Shown: in pieces, positions 38,302 through 49,085 of the stretch
Position numbering within the stretch: the first letter of the stretch is position 1
Layout of the letters: every line of letters begins with the position of its first letter
Source: Actinomycetospora soli
GTDB lineage: Bacteria > Actinomycetota > Actinomycetes > Mycobacteriales > Pseudonocardiaceae
Direction: 5' to 3'
Length of the DNA: 64,000 nucleotides
Assembly: GCF_021026295.1 (NCBI RefSeq)
Contig: NZ_JAJNDA010000008.1
Span: 62,001-126,000, forward strand
The notes under the pieces: model-generated
Databases searched by the model: none
The model's input: only the letters and a program-made list of their open reading frames with translations
Told to the model about the DNA's origin: nothing
Position numbers and translations under genes: made by a program

Positions 38302-38333
38302 GGCGTCGGCGGGGCGGCCGGCGGAACGGCGGC

Positions 38334-38399
38334 AAGATCTCATCCGGCGGAGCGAAGTGATCGCTCAGCGATCACATTGCTCCGCTGGTCCGGATCTTG
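38334..38399. repeat. CAAGATCT-family palindrome, copy 2
   Basis: AAGATCT at the left, CGGAGCGAAGTGATCGCTCA pairing with GCGATCACATTGCTCCG, and CCGGATCTTGG at the right. Same length and layout as copies 1 and 3. Confidence 0.88.
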
Positions 38400-38505
38400 G
38401 GTCGCCCGGGGTGCGGCCGCCCGCCAAGGGACTCGCCCCTCCACCGGGGGTGGCGCCGGCCGGTCCGGAGCGGTATGAGGCGCCGGGCACCGCGGCCCTG
38501 GGCCG

Positions 38506-38572
38506 CAAGATCTCAGCCGGCGGAGCGAAGTGATCGCTGAGCGATCACATCGCTCCGCTCGATCAGATCTTG
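38506..38572. repeat. CAAGATCT-family palindrome, copy 3 (best conserved)
   Basis: Exact terminal inverted repeats CAAGATCT (38506-38513) and AGATCTTG (38565-38572). Core GCGGAGCGAAGTGATCGCT, one G, then AGCGATCACATCGCTCCGC: nearly perfect. It ends 13 nt before the gtrA stop. Confidence 0.9.
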
Positions 38573-38584
38573 CTGCGCGGAGCG

Positions 38585-42100: not shown

Positions 42101-42243
42101 AGTGGGGCAACGTCGACCGGATCGTCTACGACCACCCGACGGACAACTACGACCTCACGGTCGGCTCGGTGACCCGCAGCGGCCTGACCCGGTTCCCGAC
42201 CCTCGCGTCGGAGGCGTACTCGGGGCGTGAGTACCTCGGGTAG
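39103..42243 (+). CDS. Arabinosyltransferase, Emb family, divergent member (Emb-2)
   Basis: A 1046-residue Emb paralogue. Topology is as in Emb-1, but the catalytic region reads PLQNDDSWYLLMARNAGATGY (Asp258-Asp259) in place of SDDGYI, the later motif is LGPTKWVNHFGAIA in place of PTKWTHHFG, and SPSG replaces TPTG. The C-terminal lectin-like half is shorter, with a Pro/Gly-rich linker near 760. These changes suggest the EmbA-like or otherwise specialised subunit of a heterodimer. ATG at 39103. The last 17 nt overlap the start of Emb-3. Confidence 0.94.
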   Translation: MAVVEDTPVHVTEDDPRRTPSRRTIRSGWFLAALAAVTVLLGVAIPFAPVTADDPVVSWPKAGQPATSTSVPLVPYRPLAMTAEVPCQALRGGGDALRTQPASAGTPGRGLTVSSSGGRVTVTSDGATLVDEVLPLTPCLYRYANDGTTTTLTRDGQQLYAAPGQAPQVAELATDAPGTPGLAATVHPDDRYSSVPSGLKLTLLILHVLALAATIVLAARRWWGRNDGGFVRPRFHGADVAVGVVSAAWVVLSPLQNDDSWYLLMARNAGATGYVGNQIYMFDATENPFVGSQYLMSMWGSVGNWLGMPGWGLLWMRILPLLLGLLTWFLLRGVLATALGRIERRRWVPWTLLGAHLAWFLPYGMALRPEVFIVPVFAGVLLLAEIARKRDAVGPLIPATALAALSVTISPSGLVSAAPVVVTLPWLFRWLRTTSWRTRLGVVGAVIAAGTIAIPVGFGDATLGDVVEATGVHSWYYVTFPWYEEWAHYRTLIETGTWGRRLPVLLTLVLLVIVSIGSGRRGRSDGPLHAYTLSTAVTTAVALFLLALGPTKWVNHFGAIAAPGTLLLALAMLQTPLPRRPGALVTGAGVALLTGATVLGFAGPNVWKPYSDRGQPFGKHLDPDLSMLDMEQLAPHIGPLYLRQFWWWLGLALATALFVAWRRRNRKPTFGITPDRAVLVPSVVMTALLMVAVMVYAPVIQAPGWSVAGAQLQALAGRPCQLSNSVEVMERTPADLGGPVTPAVGTGDFALTEPGNGGPDEAPVPPPGPAPGGTGPAMWHDAVTSDPNLPQQGTGLGTLTTGWYPVPAQSTATHVVVPVAGNDPDQQRIVLEFGYGPAAAPTRTTAVTVNPANGLTARQWQEVPVLLPGDRPSAVRLVAEDRVAGPDTALAVAPPHLAAMQPVQSLTGPDAYGNGPGTGPPVFADQLSAVLWPCVNQVAVQHGIAPTPVVRLQAAENTPDFILTNPTYESWGGTMVQSERTWATVRIYSTVTAGGPPTLQWGNVDRIVYDHPTDNYDLTVGSVTRSGLTRFPTLASEAYSGREYLG

Positions 42244-45163
42244 GTGGATCGCCCTCGTCGCGGGCGCCGTCTCGGTGCTCGCGGCGCTGGCGTTCCCGTT
42301 CGCGCCGGTGACGCAGCCCGTCGTCACGTACTCGTGGCCGACGTCGGTCGCGCCCACCGGCGCGGCGATCCCGATGCTGCCCTACCAACCGCAGTCGCTC
42401 GTCGTCACCGTGACGGCCGACGCGGTGCGGGCGGCCGCGCCGGGCACCGTGCTGTTCTCCACGGCGCCGCCGGTGACCGACCCGCTCGCCGAGCCGATCC
42501 AGGGGCTGACGGTCCGCACGGCCGCGGACGGGGTCGAGGTGACCTCGGGCGGGCGGACGTTCGCGCCCGTGCCGGCCGGGTCGCTGCGCGTGGACTCGTC
42601 GGTCGACGCGACCACCCTCGCCGTCGACGGCCGCGAGGTCGCCCGGGCCGACGGGGACGTCCGGCCCGCCGTGGCGGGCGCGTTCACCGGCGCGGCGACC
42701 TCCGCGGGGCTGAGCTTCTCCGCGGTCGGGGACACGCGGTTCCAGACGACCGCGAGCGGCTGGAAGGTCGCGCTCGGGGTCGTGGCGGTGCTGGCGTTCC
42801 TCGTGGCGCTGGGCGCGCTGTGGCGCGCCTCCCCCGGTGACAGGAAAGCGTCGTTGCTGTCATCCAGTGGCAGGAACGCCACTTCGTCGGGAGGCCCCCG
42901 CGCCCGCGTCGCCGACCTCGGCGTCGTCGGGGGCCTCCTGCTGTGGCAGGTGATCGGGCCGCTGACGGTCGACGACGGCTACATCGCCGGGATCGTGCGC
43001 TCGCTCGGGCAGAACGGGCAGGTCGGCACCGTCTTCCGGTGGCTGAACTCCCCGGAGACGCCGTTCGGCTGGTTCTACGAGGTGCTGGCCGTGATCGCCG
43101 GCGTCGGCCCGGCGCCGTTCTGGCTGCGCCTGCCCGCGACGGTGCTCGGGATCGTCGGCTGGTTCCTGCTGACCCGCTCGGTGCTGCCCCGGCTGACGGT
43201 CCCGGCGGCTCCGCTGCTGGCCGGGGTCGTCTACCTCGCCTGGTGGCTGCCCTACGACCTCGGCGTCCGGCCCGAGCCGTGGGTGCTCGTCGGGTCGGCG
43301 CTCGTGTTCGTGCTGGTGGAGCGGGCGATCGAGCGGTCGAGCGCCGTCGCCCTGGTCGGCGCGCTGGCGATCGCGGGGGTCACGCTCGCGGTCACGCCGA
43401 CCGGCCTGATGGCCTTCGTGCCGCTGCTCGTCGGGCTGGCAGCACTCCGTCCCCTGCTGAAGCCGGCCACGCTCGTCGTCGGGATCGCCGCCCTGGGCCT
43501 GACCCTGGTGCTGGTCTACGCGGACCAGACCTGGGCGTCCGTGCTCGACTCCGTCGGCATCCGCACGCTCATCGGCGGCGACCGGCCCTGGACCGACGAG
43601 TACGTCCGCTACGCCTCGCTGCTCACCGTCGGCGACGCGGAGGGCAACCTCGGGCGCCGCGCCCCGGTCCTGCTGCTCGTCCTGGCGTTCGCCGCCCTCG
43701 CCTTCGGAGCCCGGGACCGGCTGACCGGGACGAGCCGCCGCGTCGTCGTGGTGACGCTGCTCTCGCTGGTCTCGCTCGCCTTCACCCCGACGAAGTGGAC
43801 CCACCACTTCGGCGCCTTCGCCGTCCTCGGCACGGCCACCACGCTCCTCGCGCTGGACGCGTGGCGGCGCTCCCTTCCCGACGACGAGGGTCGCCGGCTC
43901 CGGCGCGCGTCGGTCGGGGTCGCGGCGGCGGCGGGCGTGTCGGGGCTGACGCTCGCCGGCTACAACCAGTGGCACTGGATCTCCAGCTACGCGATCACGT
44001 GGTCGACGCTGTCGCCGCAGCTCGGCGGTGTGCGCTTCGCCGACGCGGTGCTCGTGGTCGGTGCGGCCGTGGCGGTCGTCCTGGCGGTCCTGGCGCTGCG
44101 ACGGAGTGGCGAACCTGCCACTGGACGACAGCAACGACGCTTTCCTGCCACGGCGTGGGCGCCCGGACTCGCGATCGGTGTCGTGGTGCTGGTGGTCGCG
44201 ATCGAGGTGCTCTCGTTCGCGCGGACCGCGTACCAGCGACGGGACTCGTACACCCTGGCGTCCGACTCGATCGCGTCGTTGACCGGCGGCTCCTGCGGCA
44301 TCGCCGACCGGCTCCGCGTCGAGCGCGACCCGCTCGCCGGGCTGCTCCCGTCCGACGGACCCGGTGCCCTCCCGACGACGGGTCCCGACGGCCCGAGCAT
44401 GGCCGGCGCCGATCTCCCCGGCTGGCGCGGACCCGACGTGACGACCGGCTGGTATCGCCTGCCCGACCGCGACAGCGCCACGTACCCGCCGGGCGAGGAG
44501 CCCGACCCGCCCGGACCCGTCGTCGTGACCCTGACCGGGCCGGTCGCGGCCGGGGACGTCGTCGCGGAGTTCCGCGCTCCCGACGGCGAGGTCACCCGCG
44601 TGCCGCTCGACGAGGGCGCGACCCAGTACGCGGAGTCGGCGAGCGTCGACGCCCCGCGCTCGCGCGACCTGCGCCTCGACCCCGGGCTCTCGGCCGACTA
44701 CACCGCCATCCGCCTGGTCAGCGCCCGGGACACACCGGAGACGCAGGGCTTCTCCGCGCCGCGGATCGCCCGCCTCGTGCCGTGGAACGAGGTCCTCACC
44801 CCCGGCACGCCCGCCGCCGTCGACTGGCCCGGCGCGTTCCTCTTCCCGTGCACCCCGTTCCCGACCCTGCGCGACGGGGTCGCCGAGCTCCCCGGCTGGC
44901 GGGTGTCCACCGACGCCCGCAGCGAGGCGCAGTCGGGCTACATCAGCTACACCGCCTCGCAGGGCGGCCCGTGGCTCACCGCGCGGGCGCTGGTCCGCCA
45001 GGTCCGCTACGCGGTCTACCTCCCGGGCCTGCCGCTGACCGACATCGCGAGCCTCGAGCGCTGGGTCCCGACGACGCCGCTGGTCCCGCCCGGGGTCACC
45101 TCCCGCGAGGTCTCCCACAGCGGGTTCTCGACGCCGGGTCCGCTCTCGATCGGGGAGAGCTAG
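42227..45163 (+). CDS. Arabinosyltransferase, Emb family, with two embedded palindromic elements (Emb-3)
   Basis: A 978-residue Emb paralogue with Asp249-Asp250 in [40 protein letters not shown] and [14 protein letters not shown], and the C-terminal carbohydrate-binding domain. Two 47-bp repeats lie in frame inside it: one at 42837-42883, encoding [15 protein letters not shown] in the loop before the catalytic segment, and one reversed at 44105-44151, encoding [16 protein letters not shown] in the loop before the last helix. Both loops are hydrophilic and tolerate insertion. GTG start overlaps Emb-2 by 17 nt, giving coupled translation. Confidence 0.94.
42837..42883 (+). repeat. 47-bp element inside Emb-3, copy 1 (forward)
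   Basis: GTGACAGGAAAGCGTCGTTG, then CTGTCATCCAGTGGCAGG, AACGCCACT. It contains two potential hairpins: TGACAG/CTGTCA and GTGGC-AGGAAC-GCCAC. Aligned with the reverse complement of copy 2 it differs at about five positions. Confidence 0.9.
44105..44151 (-). repeat. 47-bp element inside Emb-3, copy 2 (reverse)
   Basis: On the minus strand GTGGCAGGAAAGCGTCGTTG, CTGTCGTCCAGTGGCAGG, TTCGCCACT. Same length as copy 1 and opposite orientation, 1.2 kb away in the same gene. No other copy was seen in the window. Confidence 0.9.
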
Positions 45164-47595: not shown

Positions 47596-47617
47596 GGACC
47601 GCGAGCGTGGCGCATTC

Positions 47618-47651
47618 CTGACGTCGAGTGTCAGCCGTGTGCCACCGCTGA
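47618..47651. repeat. CTGACGTC/GTCAGCCGTG element, copy 3
   Basis: CTGACGTCGAGTGTCAGCC, then GTGTGCCACCGCTGAC, with GCGTGGCGC just before it as at copy 2. The acyltransferase stop codon (47631-47633) lies inside it, so its last residues (SAVAHG) are encoded by the element. Confidence 0.75.
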
Positions 47652-49085
47652 CGCGGCGGGGGACGACGACCGCATCAACCGACGACGCGCCGGCTCCTCG
47701 ACCCACCGGTACGCCAGGTGGGCCACGAGCACCGAGGCGACGAGCACGTGGGGGATCGCGAGGGCCGCGAGCGAGGAGTTCGGGGCCAGGGCCGGGAACC
47801 GGGTCATCGCGACGACGGTGATCTCGATCAGCGGGAAGTGCACCAGGTAGATCGCGTAGGAGATGCGGCCGCCGTGCTGCAGGCGCGGCGAGGACAGCCA
47901 GTCCACGAGCCGGCCCCGGGCAACGCACAGCGCGCCCAGCAGCACCGGGAAGAGCGGGACGGCGAGCCAGAGCCGGTCGGCCGCGGGGATCGCCGCGGAG
48001 GCCGGCGCCGAGGCCGCCCAGTACGCCACCAGCACCGTCTCGGCGAGCACGGCCAGCACCAGGCGGCCCGCCCACAGCTCGACGACGGGCGTCCGGGGCA
48101 GCCGCTCCACCACGAGCCACGTCAGCATCCCGGCGGTGAAGCCGCCGCCGATGCGCAGCAACCAGACCCACGCGCCCGACTCGCCCGAGCCCGCCGTCAC
48201 GAGCGGGACCACCGCGACCGGCGAGGCCGCCAGCACCGCAAACACCGCCAGCACGGGCAGCGGCCACGACCGGATCCGCCACGCGGCGAGCACCAGCAGC
48301 GGGAAGCACAGGTAGGCCAGCCACTCCGCGCTCACCGACCACGCCGGCAGCACGAACGAGACGCCCTCGATGCCGGACGAGGTCCACATCTGGGTCATCG
48401 TCAGCTGCCGGATCCAGCCGAGCGGGCCGAGCGAGGGCTGCGGGTTCTGCCAGGCCACGATCCCGTCGCTGCCGAACACCAGCCGCGCCGCGCACCACGC
48501 GCCGAACGCGACCGTGACGACCGCGTACAGCGGCCACACCCGGGCGATGCGCGCGCGCAGGAACCGGGCCGTCCCACCGACCGACGGCCTGGCCCCCATC
48601 CGCGCGAGGTACGAGCGGGTCAGCACCAGCCCGGAGAGCACGAAGAACAGGTCCACCCCGAGCGGCCCGGCCGCCACGAGCGGCGCGATCGGGGCCGTCC
48701 AGCGCGCGAACACGTCGCCGGGAATGTACGAGGCGTGCAGCAGCAGCACCCACACCGCCGCGACGAAGCGCAGCCCGGTGAGCTGGGCGATGTCCTGCGG
48801 CTTCCGTCCCGACGTCGGGTCGGTGCCGGTCGGCCGCGCGGCCGGCGGCTCCACGGCCGGCAGGGCCGGCACCGGCGAGGTCCCCCTGGTCCGGGGGAGC
48901 GGGAGGACGGTCCCGCTCCCCGCACCGGGCGTCCGGAAGCCAACCGGCGACGCCGCGAGGGCGTCGTCGGACACGAGCGGCACCGCGACCAGCGGTGTCG
49001 TGCGCAGCGAGGAGACCCGGGTCGGCTCCGCCGCCGTCCCGCGCGCACCCGTCGTCCGCGACGTGAGTGACGTCAGCGTTCCCAT
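47631..49085 (-). CDS. Acyltransferase family 3 membrane protein with long N-terminal tail
   Basis: A 484-residue OafA-like O-acyltransferase. The first 100 residues are Thr/Pro/Ala-rich and probably disordered cytoplasmic sequence; then IAQLTGLRFVAAVWVLLLHASYIP (catalytic His helix), GVDLFFVLSGLVLTRSYLAR, ARIARVWPLYAVVTVAFG and PAWSVSAEWLAYLCFPLL follow, with about ten helices and SYAIYLVHFPLIEITVVA near the end. Likely to O-acylate an envelope glycan, given its place beside arabinan genes. ATG at 49085 has GGGGAGG upstream. Divergent from the GT-C gene. Confidence 0.9.
   Translation of the reverse strand: MGTLTSLTSRTTGARGTAAEPTRVSSLRTTPLVAVPLVSDDALAASPVGFRTPGAGSGTVLPLPRTRGTSPVPALPAVEPPAARPTGTDPTSGRKPQDIAQLTGLRFVAAVWVLLLHASYIPGDVFARWTAPIAPLVAAGPLGVDLFFVLSGLVLTRSYLARMGARPSVGGTARFLRARIARVWPLYAVVTVAFGAWCAARLVFGSDGIVAWQNPQPSLGPLGWIRQLTMTQMWTSSGIEGVSFVLPAWSVSAEWLAYLCFPLLVLAAWRIRSWPLPVLAVFAVLAASPVAVVPLVTAGSGESGAWVWLLRIGGGFTAGMLTWLVVERLPRTPVVELWAGRLVLAVLAETVLVAYWAASAPASAAIPAADRLWLAVPLFPVLLGALCVARGRLVDWLSSPRLQHGGRISYAIYLVHFPLIEITVVAMTRFPALAPNSSLAALAIPHVLVASVLVAHLAYRWVEEPARRRLMRSSSPAASAVAHG

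Follow-up and report, generated by a model that had tools for sequence, protein, structure and literature searches.

The window analysed here, a stretch of 64,000 nucleotides from Actinomycetospora soli, contains the open reading frames (ORFs) Emb-1, Emb-2 and Emb-3. The Emb-3 ORF is uninterrupted, its three Pfam domains are those of mycobacterial Emb proteins, and its product aligns with the solved EmbA, EmbB and EmbC. Two copies of a short palindromic element lie within this ORF in opposite orientation, and a third, diverged copy lies further downstream. The features are as follows, in window coordinates:

42227..45163, + strand: Emb-3 ORF, arabinosyltransferase family, housing both copies (domains Arabinose_trans, Arabino_trans_N and Arabino_trans_C)
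42826..42836, + strand: C-rich tract immediately 5' of copy 1
42837..42889, + strand: element copy 1 in Emb-3, dialect I, type A (69.2 bits with model R2)
42837..42863, + strand: hairpin 1 of copy 1 (model columns 1-27), the part that covaries genus-wide
42867..42882, + strand: second hairpin of copy 1 (columns 31-46), which forms in dialect I and is without genus-wide support
44099..44151, - strand: element copy 2 in Emb-3, dialect I, type A, in the opposite orientation (63.9 bits with model R2)
44125..44151, - strand: hairpin 1 region of copy 2 (model columns 1-27), absent from the best single-strand fold
47602..47654, - strand: third, diverged copy (34.5 bits), written in the GTGTCAGC dialect; it overlaps the 3' end of a minus-strand gene called at 47631-48983

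The original prediction, made from the letters of the window, had placed two inverted copies of a 47-bp unit at these positions, each able to fold into two hairpins and each in frame within a hydrophilic loop between membrane helices. Places, orientation and likeness stand, but the true unit is 53 bp long: the copies are identical at 48 of 53 positions, and only four of the five differences fall within the first 47, where about five had been counted. Copy 1 does fold into two hairpins, but the best fold of copy 2 gives the second hairpin only. The placement in charged, in-frame loops is borne out, with copy 1 encoding amino acids 204-221 of Emb-3 (net charge +2) between hydrophobic segments 181-199 and 228-246, and copy 2 encoding amino acids 625-642 (net charge +4) between segments 606-624 and 647-665. 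Judging by this charge and by the fold that we take Emb proteins to have, both insert loops probably lie on the cytoplasmic face. A search of positions 42700-44300 against Rfam at E values up to 10 returned four weak, unrelated matches and none to the elements themselves.

The two copies belong to a large family. In the 6.5 Mb genome to which the window belongs (G000), the left 35 bases of the element have 70 matches with at most three mismatches and the reversed control has none, so the Emb-3 pair is not a chance resemblance; a genome-wide search had been proposed as a check, and these many further copies exclude a repeat confined to a single locus. Across 43 distinct copies, chosen by their likeness to the left 35 columns, conservation is restricted to 53 columns and stops sharply on both sides, and no variation is seen in 17 of the first 25 columns. 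The family is on average preceded by a C-rich tract. Two forms occur: type A is the 53-bp unit seen in the window, and type B, about 53-57 bp long, is a palindrome, perfect or nearly so, whose left half is the same on both strands. Type A mostly starts with GTGNCAG and mostly ends with TCGTCG in G000 or TCCTCG in other species, and its two ends (GTGGCAGG and the opposite end) are not inverted repeats of each other. With at most one mismatch, a 21-base core is matched 122 times in G000, 211 times in G001, 97 times in G003, 26 times in G015 and twice in G007; the other 13 genomes of the genus and 82 genomes of other genera gave no match at this threshold. A count of core matches in G000 that includes both arms of palindromes gives 153. 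A different, longer palindrome of about 65-72 bp (core GGAGCGAAGTGATCGCT) is present in the window in two tandem copies behind Emb-1 (38329-38399 and 38501-38576), and G001 has two similarly spaced copies of it (L200, 18562 and 18684).

Covariance model R1, whose 12 sequences include ten Emb copies and which therefore matches the Emb sites by construction, found strong matches (E <= 1e-7) in all 18 Actinomycetospora genomes and in one of 82 genomes of other genera; its counts at E <= 0.01 were not used, because weak matches in G+C-rich DNA are often due to chance. The sole match outside the genus (E = 9.6e-8) is in G036, a genome of another genus of Pseudonocardiaceae, and belongs to a separate palindrome family. 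That family is itself abundant, with 126 matches of the 17-mer AAAGTGCCGTTGCTGGC at up to two mismatches against one in the control (L191), and it resembles the Actinomycetospora family in length and high copy number but differs from it in sequence. Five other genera tested for a comparable palindrome family gave control levels. Model R2 was built from 31 sequences, with one or more rows from most genomes of the genus. The Emb copies of G010, first recognised by eye in the alignment, also served as model rows. With R2, each Actinomycetospora genome has roughly 42 to 145 matches at E <= 1e-6, where no more than 150 candidates were scored in each genome. Other species have the same element design in different letters, that is, in different dialects. 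Among the matches listed, the core was also found in Actinomycetospora sp. NBRC 106378 and A. chiangmaiensis DSM 45062. An exact 23-mer match in a Pseudomonas record was taken as chance, because the sequence outside the core departs from the element. Phage records, plasmid records and, for an exact 21-mer, viral contigs contained no match.

Covariation was assessed on 31 sequences hand-chosen as examples of different dialects. Hairpin 1 (columns 1-12 paired with 16-27) has 38 double-changed cells against 10.0 +/- 4.0 in shuffled alignments, a value reached in none of 500 shuffles; the number of pairs with a double change and the number of further pair types were both within the range of shuffles (149/500 and 244/500, respectively). 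Covariation is also seen in an alternative hairpin in the middle of the element (24 cells against 9.5 +/- 4.0). The hairpin formed by columns 31-35 and 42-46 was rejected as a conserved part of the family, having no genus-wide support in this test. Hairpin 1 reaches up to 12 pairs with a loop of 3 nt in some dialects and has nine pairs and a 7-nt inner loop in copy 1. Folds of seven typed single sequences, two of which are reverse strands, gave z-scores from -2.71 to +0.62.

A close orthologue of Emb-3 (72-91% identity) is found in seven species besides G000. In these eight species, site 2 (that of copy 2) always carries the element and site 1 carries the whole element in seven, G014 having its 3' part only; neither site is empty in any of the eight. 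Nine distant Actinomycetospora Emb proteins (41-46% identity where measured) lack the element when aligned, and their loops are shorter at site 2 in all nine and at site 1 in eight, the exception being G012, which has a longer loop of unrelated sequence there. G004, with only a partial Emb match (46%), was excluded from this alignment. The neighbouring Emb-1 and Emb-2 ORFs, which had been described as unrelated to Emb-3 at these places, contain no element match with an E value up to 1. Insertion rather than shared ancestry had been proposed on that ground, and it now agrees both with the dispersed, palindromic nature of the element and with its absence from the nine distant Emb proteins. Residues shared with the loops of distant genera, which would have spoken for ancestry, were not found: in mycobacterial EmbB, the loop at this place has an unrelated sequence. 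Insertion into Emb-3 is supported. Because 53 is not divisible by three, extra bases must have entered or left Emb-3; the loop lengths vary among species and the frame is always kept. Read in the coding-strand frame of site 2, the consensus of the family contains a TGA. Of 53 other dialect-I copies, 31 have this stop, whereas it is missing from all four Emb site-2 copies (Fisher p = 0.038, with the four orthologous Emb copies treated as independent).

Placement relative to genes was determined with genes called by our own script for 100 of 106 matches (at least 30 bits; six weaker matches were dropped), a non-random sample drawn from the surroundings of Emb, from one syntenic region and from places where copies were already known. 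Coding sequences contain 16 of the 78 type A matches, and 12 of these 16 are the Emb copies of six genomes. Among the 62 type A matches outside coding sequences, 42 start 0-30 nt behind a co-directional stop codon, 36 of the 62 at a distance of 6-14 nt, and the remaining 20 are elsewhere, five of them overlapping a gene end. For comparison, 259 of 3,172 random non-coding placements had a co-directional stop within 40 nt, and 400 kb of contig C22, taken whole, repeats the pattern behind stops. In the 12 nt preceding 89 copies, C makes up 54% and G 23%; behind 1,447 stops that have no element, the shares are 40% and 35%. While type A lies behind co-directional genes, type B is found at several places where convergent genes end. 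The other clade of the genus comprises G002, G004-G006, G008, G009, G011-G013 and G017; there, only two of 14 sampled copies, the best-scoring one or two per genome, are within 20 nt of a stop. Nine of the 14 continue into GCGACACGCC and four have CACGGGGT in front of them, which makes the unit of this clade longer. Placement behind stops thus looks like a property of one clade.

Beyond Emb-3, in-frame copies were found by our gene calls in five ORFs: one at C22:91288, presumably biotin carboxylase-like; one on C13, presumably regulator-like, with a type B copy in its linker; ORF C22:208592, at its C-terminus; an ORF of G001, at its N-terminus; and an ORF of G003. The N- and C-terminal cases may be mis-called genes. 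Coding copies use frames that give hydrophilic peptides, not those containing cysteine or tryptophan.

To follow the element at fixed places, we compared flanks and elements in all 28 pairs of the eight species, with element identity available for every pair at site 2 and for 21 pairs at site 1, where G014 was left out. Between G014 and G010 the flanks of site 2 are 91% identical and the elements 57%. The same holds for G000 and G007, with flanks 85% and 83% identical and elements 57% and 53% identical at sites 1 and 2, respectively. Between G000 and G010 at site 1 the elements are, conversely, more alike (79%) than the flanks (75%). In these pairs the version of the element has changed independently of the surrounding gene. 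The six pairs within clade I (G000, G001, G003 and G015) show elements 83-96% and flanks 88-92% identical, as under plain inheritance, and orthologous copies are closer than non-orthologous ones in 72 of 80 ordered pairs; replacement is therefore not frequent over short times. Between clade I and G007 or G016 (28 ordered pairs), the distance is 0.42 for copies at orthologous sites, 0.40 for non-orthologous copies and 0.18 within a genome. A 17-base core of G007 is present in six of its own seven sampled copies, including both Emb copies, and in none of 76 sampled clade I copies, and in G001 the dialect-I core is common to 13 of 15 sampled copies. Copies are thus inherited over short times, and their versions differ over longer times.

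A non-coding site varies in a similar way: at C22:76442, G000 has a GTGCAAGC palindrome, G003 and G001 have dialect I palindromes, G007 has a GTCAGC-type unit and G016 has no element. At C22:67503 a deletion in G001 has left a remnant, and G016 and G007 have sites that lack an element. Four alignments include a relative without all or most of the element; a target duplication is not clearly visible in any of them, and three show a gap of roughly 77-83 bp, longer than the element itself. The version differences may stem from direct overwriting or from loss followed by re-insertion; for the Emb sites overwriting is favoured, since neither of them is empty in any of the eight species.

We consider the most probable reading, at roughly 0.7, to be that the Emb-3 repeats are members of a REP-like miniature palindromic family of Actinomycetospora that were inserted in frame in the common ancestor of the eight species and were later overwritten or re-inserted. 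It starts from what is observed directly, namely family membership, sharp 53-bp ends, a conserved hairpin 1, presence in both loops, absence from distant Emb proteins and the difference between versions. The element would have entered two permissive loops of Emb-3 in that ancestor, where the inserts may be tolerated because the encoded peptides are hydrophilic and lie in loops between helices. It probably spreads by copying, and newer versions would overwrite resident copies, either through template-directed replacement or through renewed insertion at the spot concerned. Non-coding copies would be transcribed, placing a hairpin just past the terminating ribosome with a possible effect on mRNA ends. 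The REP-type transposase (PF01797, Y1_Tnp) was found at E <= 0.01 in none of the 18 genomes of the genus and in six of 14 control genomes, and the moving enzyme would accordingly not be a Y1/RAYT transposase detectable with PF01797; our searches identified no mobiliser of the element, transposase or other. Tentatively, a homing-like system without a Y1 transposase could rewrite resident elements in place, including those in a gene for a cell-wall enzyme, so that versions spread by replacement and not by reaching new sites, a possibility to which we attach some weight but less than even odds.

A rather unlikely alternative is that the element inserts repeatedly and independently into hot spots, namely the positions behind stops in one clade and the two Emb-3 loops, with old copies deleted and new versions landing in their place. 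A target rule of this kind would re-use sites and would fit the 36 of 62 non-coding copies that lie 6-14 nt behind a stop, and loss by deletion did occur at C22:67503 in G001, with element-free sites in G016 and G007. The Emb sites, however, are hundreds of bases inside an ORF and far from its stop codon, no empty site exists there among the eight species, and it is harder to see how this route would lead every lineage to one pair of loops with frame and orientation kept.

It is also unlikely, somewhat more so, that the element is a non-mobile RNA signal of 3' ends, such as a terminator, an mRNA stabiliser or a hairpin at the ribosome edge, selected for a species-specific partner, with the Emb copies being stray or regulatory. 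Its position behind stops (type A following co-directional genes, type B found at a number of convergent ends) and the C-rich 12 nt in front of it (54% C and 23% G, against 40% and 35%) would suit such a role, and ribosome stalling is reported for E. coli REPs that lie no more than 15 nt from a stop (PMC12306157). Against it stand the copies that occur in frame, on both strands, within several coding sequences unrelated to one another, and the sampled copies of the other clade, most of which are without an adjacent stop. Moreover, selection alone poorly explains near-identity over most of 53 columns in dozens of copies.

The inverted arrangement in Emb-3 has parallels elsewhere in G000. Among the 70 copies there are five adjacent convergent pairs 0.77-1.3 kb apart, of which the Emb-3 pair is one, where 0.27 are expected from random places and strands; none of 5,000 random trials reached five. 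Part of this excess may come from placement behind stops, a constraint absent from the random trials. Genes lying within the other convergent pairs are mutually unrelated by eye; we take them to be, for example, monooxygenase-like and deiminase-like. A transposase lying between such pairs was considered and rejected, since the enclosed genes are unrelated and Pfam gave no family for the one tested. One unassigned gene lies between convergent elements in three species (G000 C8, 78670-79917; G001 C1, 195980-197215; G003 C1, 3554400-3555116), its G003 version being much shorter. A small conserved gene is bounded on both sides by nested inverted elements in G000 (C22; L157, 8758-9559), G003 (L212, 12903-13714) and G015 (L220, 6615-7399), with dialect I outside and another version inside. 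The original prediction had raised recombination between the two Emb-3 copies with inversion of the 1.2 kb between them; an invertible switch of this kind is highly improbable, for although the copies are inverted and 91% identical and convergent pairs at such distances are in excess (5 against 0.27 expected), all eight species have an intact Emb-3 with its parts in collinear order, none was seen with the segment inverted, and the other convergent pairs examined enclose unrelated genes.

The preferred reading of a REP-like family invites comparison with known repeats, for which we rely on the available portions of two sources. REPs are defined there as having many highly similar copies, as palindromic, as seldom found in coding regions and as 14-40 nt long in E. 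coli (PMC12306157). The Actinomycetospora element likewise has many similar copies (70 close and 153 core matches in G000), forms a palindromic stem-loop (hairpin 1, by covariation in 31 sequences) and is seldom in coding regions (62 of 78 type A matches are outside called coding sequences), but at 53 nt it exceeds the E. coli length, hairpin 1 alone being 27 nt. It shares with GTAG REPs and REPINs (PMC3733652) the high copy number of palindromes near gene 3' ends and species-specific types, and its type B resembles an inverted dimer; unlike GTAG REPs, it has no terminal GTAG tag and no Y1_Tnp protein in any of the 18 genomes. The element is also like the CGTC REPs of the same source (including Rickettsia RPE-4/RPE-6 and Neisseria dRS3; PMC3733652): in the portion available, both are short dispersed palindromes mostly behind ORFs, both also lie in frame within genes, sometimes twice per gene, and both are without a known dedicated transposase. 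In contrast, our element measures 53 bp against about 27-30 for CGTC REPs, a figure obtained from their stem, loop, tag and tail lengths, and hairpin 1 departs from the stem of 8-9 bp and loop of 4-5 nt described there. CGTC or CCTC does occur in our element, in the 3' tail behind the hairpins; the CGTC REPs have an unpaired CGTC, TGTC or CCTC at one end. The same portion already reports REPs behind ORFs and twice in one gene and suggests loops and linkers as their places (PMC3733652), so these features are not new; the word Actinobacteria is absent from the text of this article (Di Nocera et al. 2013) as available.

Hairpins directly behind stop codons are common to E. coli REPs and the Actinomycetospora family; by the available part of the E. 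coli source they are a minority there (446 of 4,072 REPs; PMC12306157), whereas this is the commonest place among the sampled copies of one Actinomycetospora clade and a rare one in the other. Rickettsia palindromic elements insert in frame at tolerated coding places, and our element, found twice in Emb-3 and in five further called ORFs, two of them at a terminus, works like them, as the original prediction had suggested by analogy. It departs from MITEs in having no terminal inverted repeats in type A and no clear target-site duplication in four alignments. Integron attC sites, which came to mind on account of the placement behind stops, were set aside. Judged by titles and the beginnings of abstracts, the open-licence literature yielded no description of such a REP family for Actinomycetospora.

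What is new is thus a genus-specific variant, and what is unusual is the difference between versions at fixed sites inside a coding sequence. The genus-wide family, its placement behind stops in one clade and the version difference at a fixed site had all been missed when the window was first read. REP-like elements are usually thought to spread via a linked transposase and then to stay and decay. Here, two related species have different versions at the same place of a gene whose flanks are 91% alike, which makes the replacement of REPs without a known transposase directly testable, and the Emb-3 copies provide a case in which a repeat writes part of a membrane enzyme.
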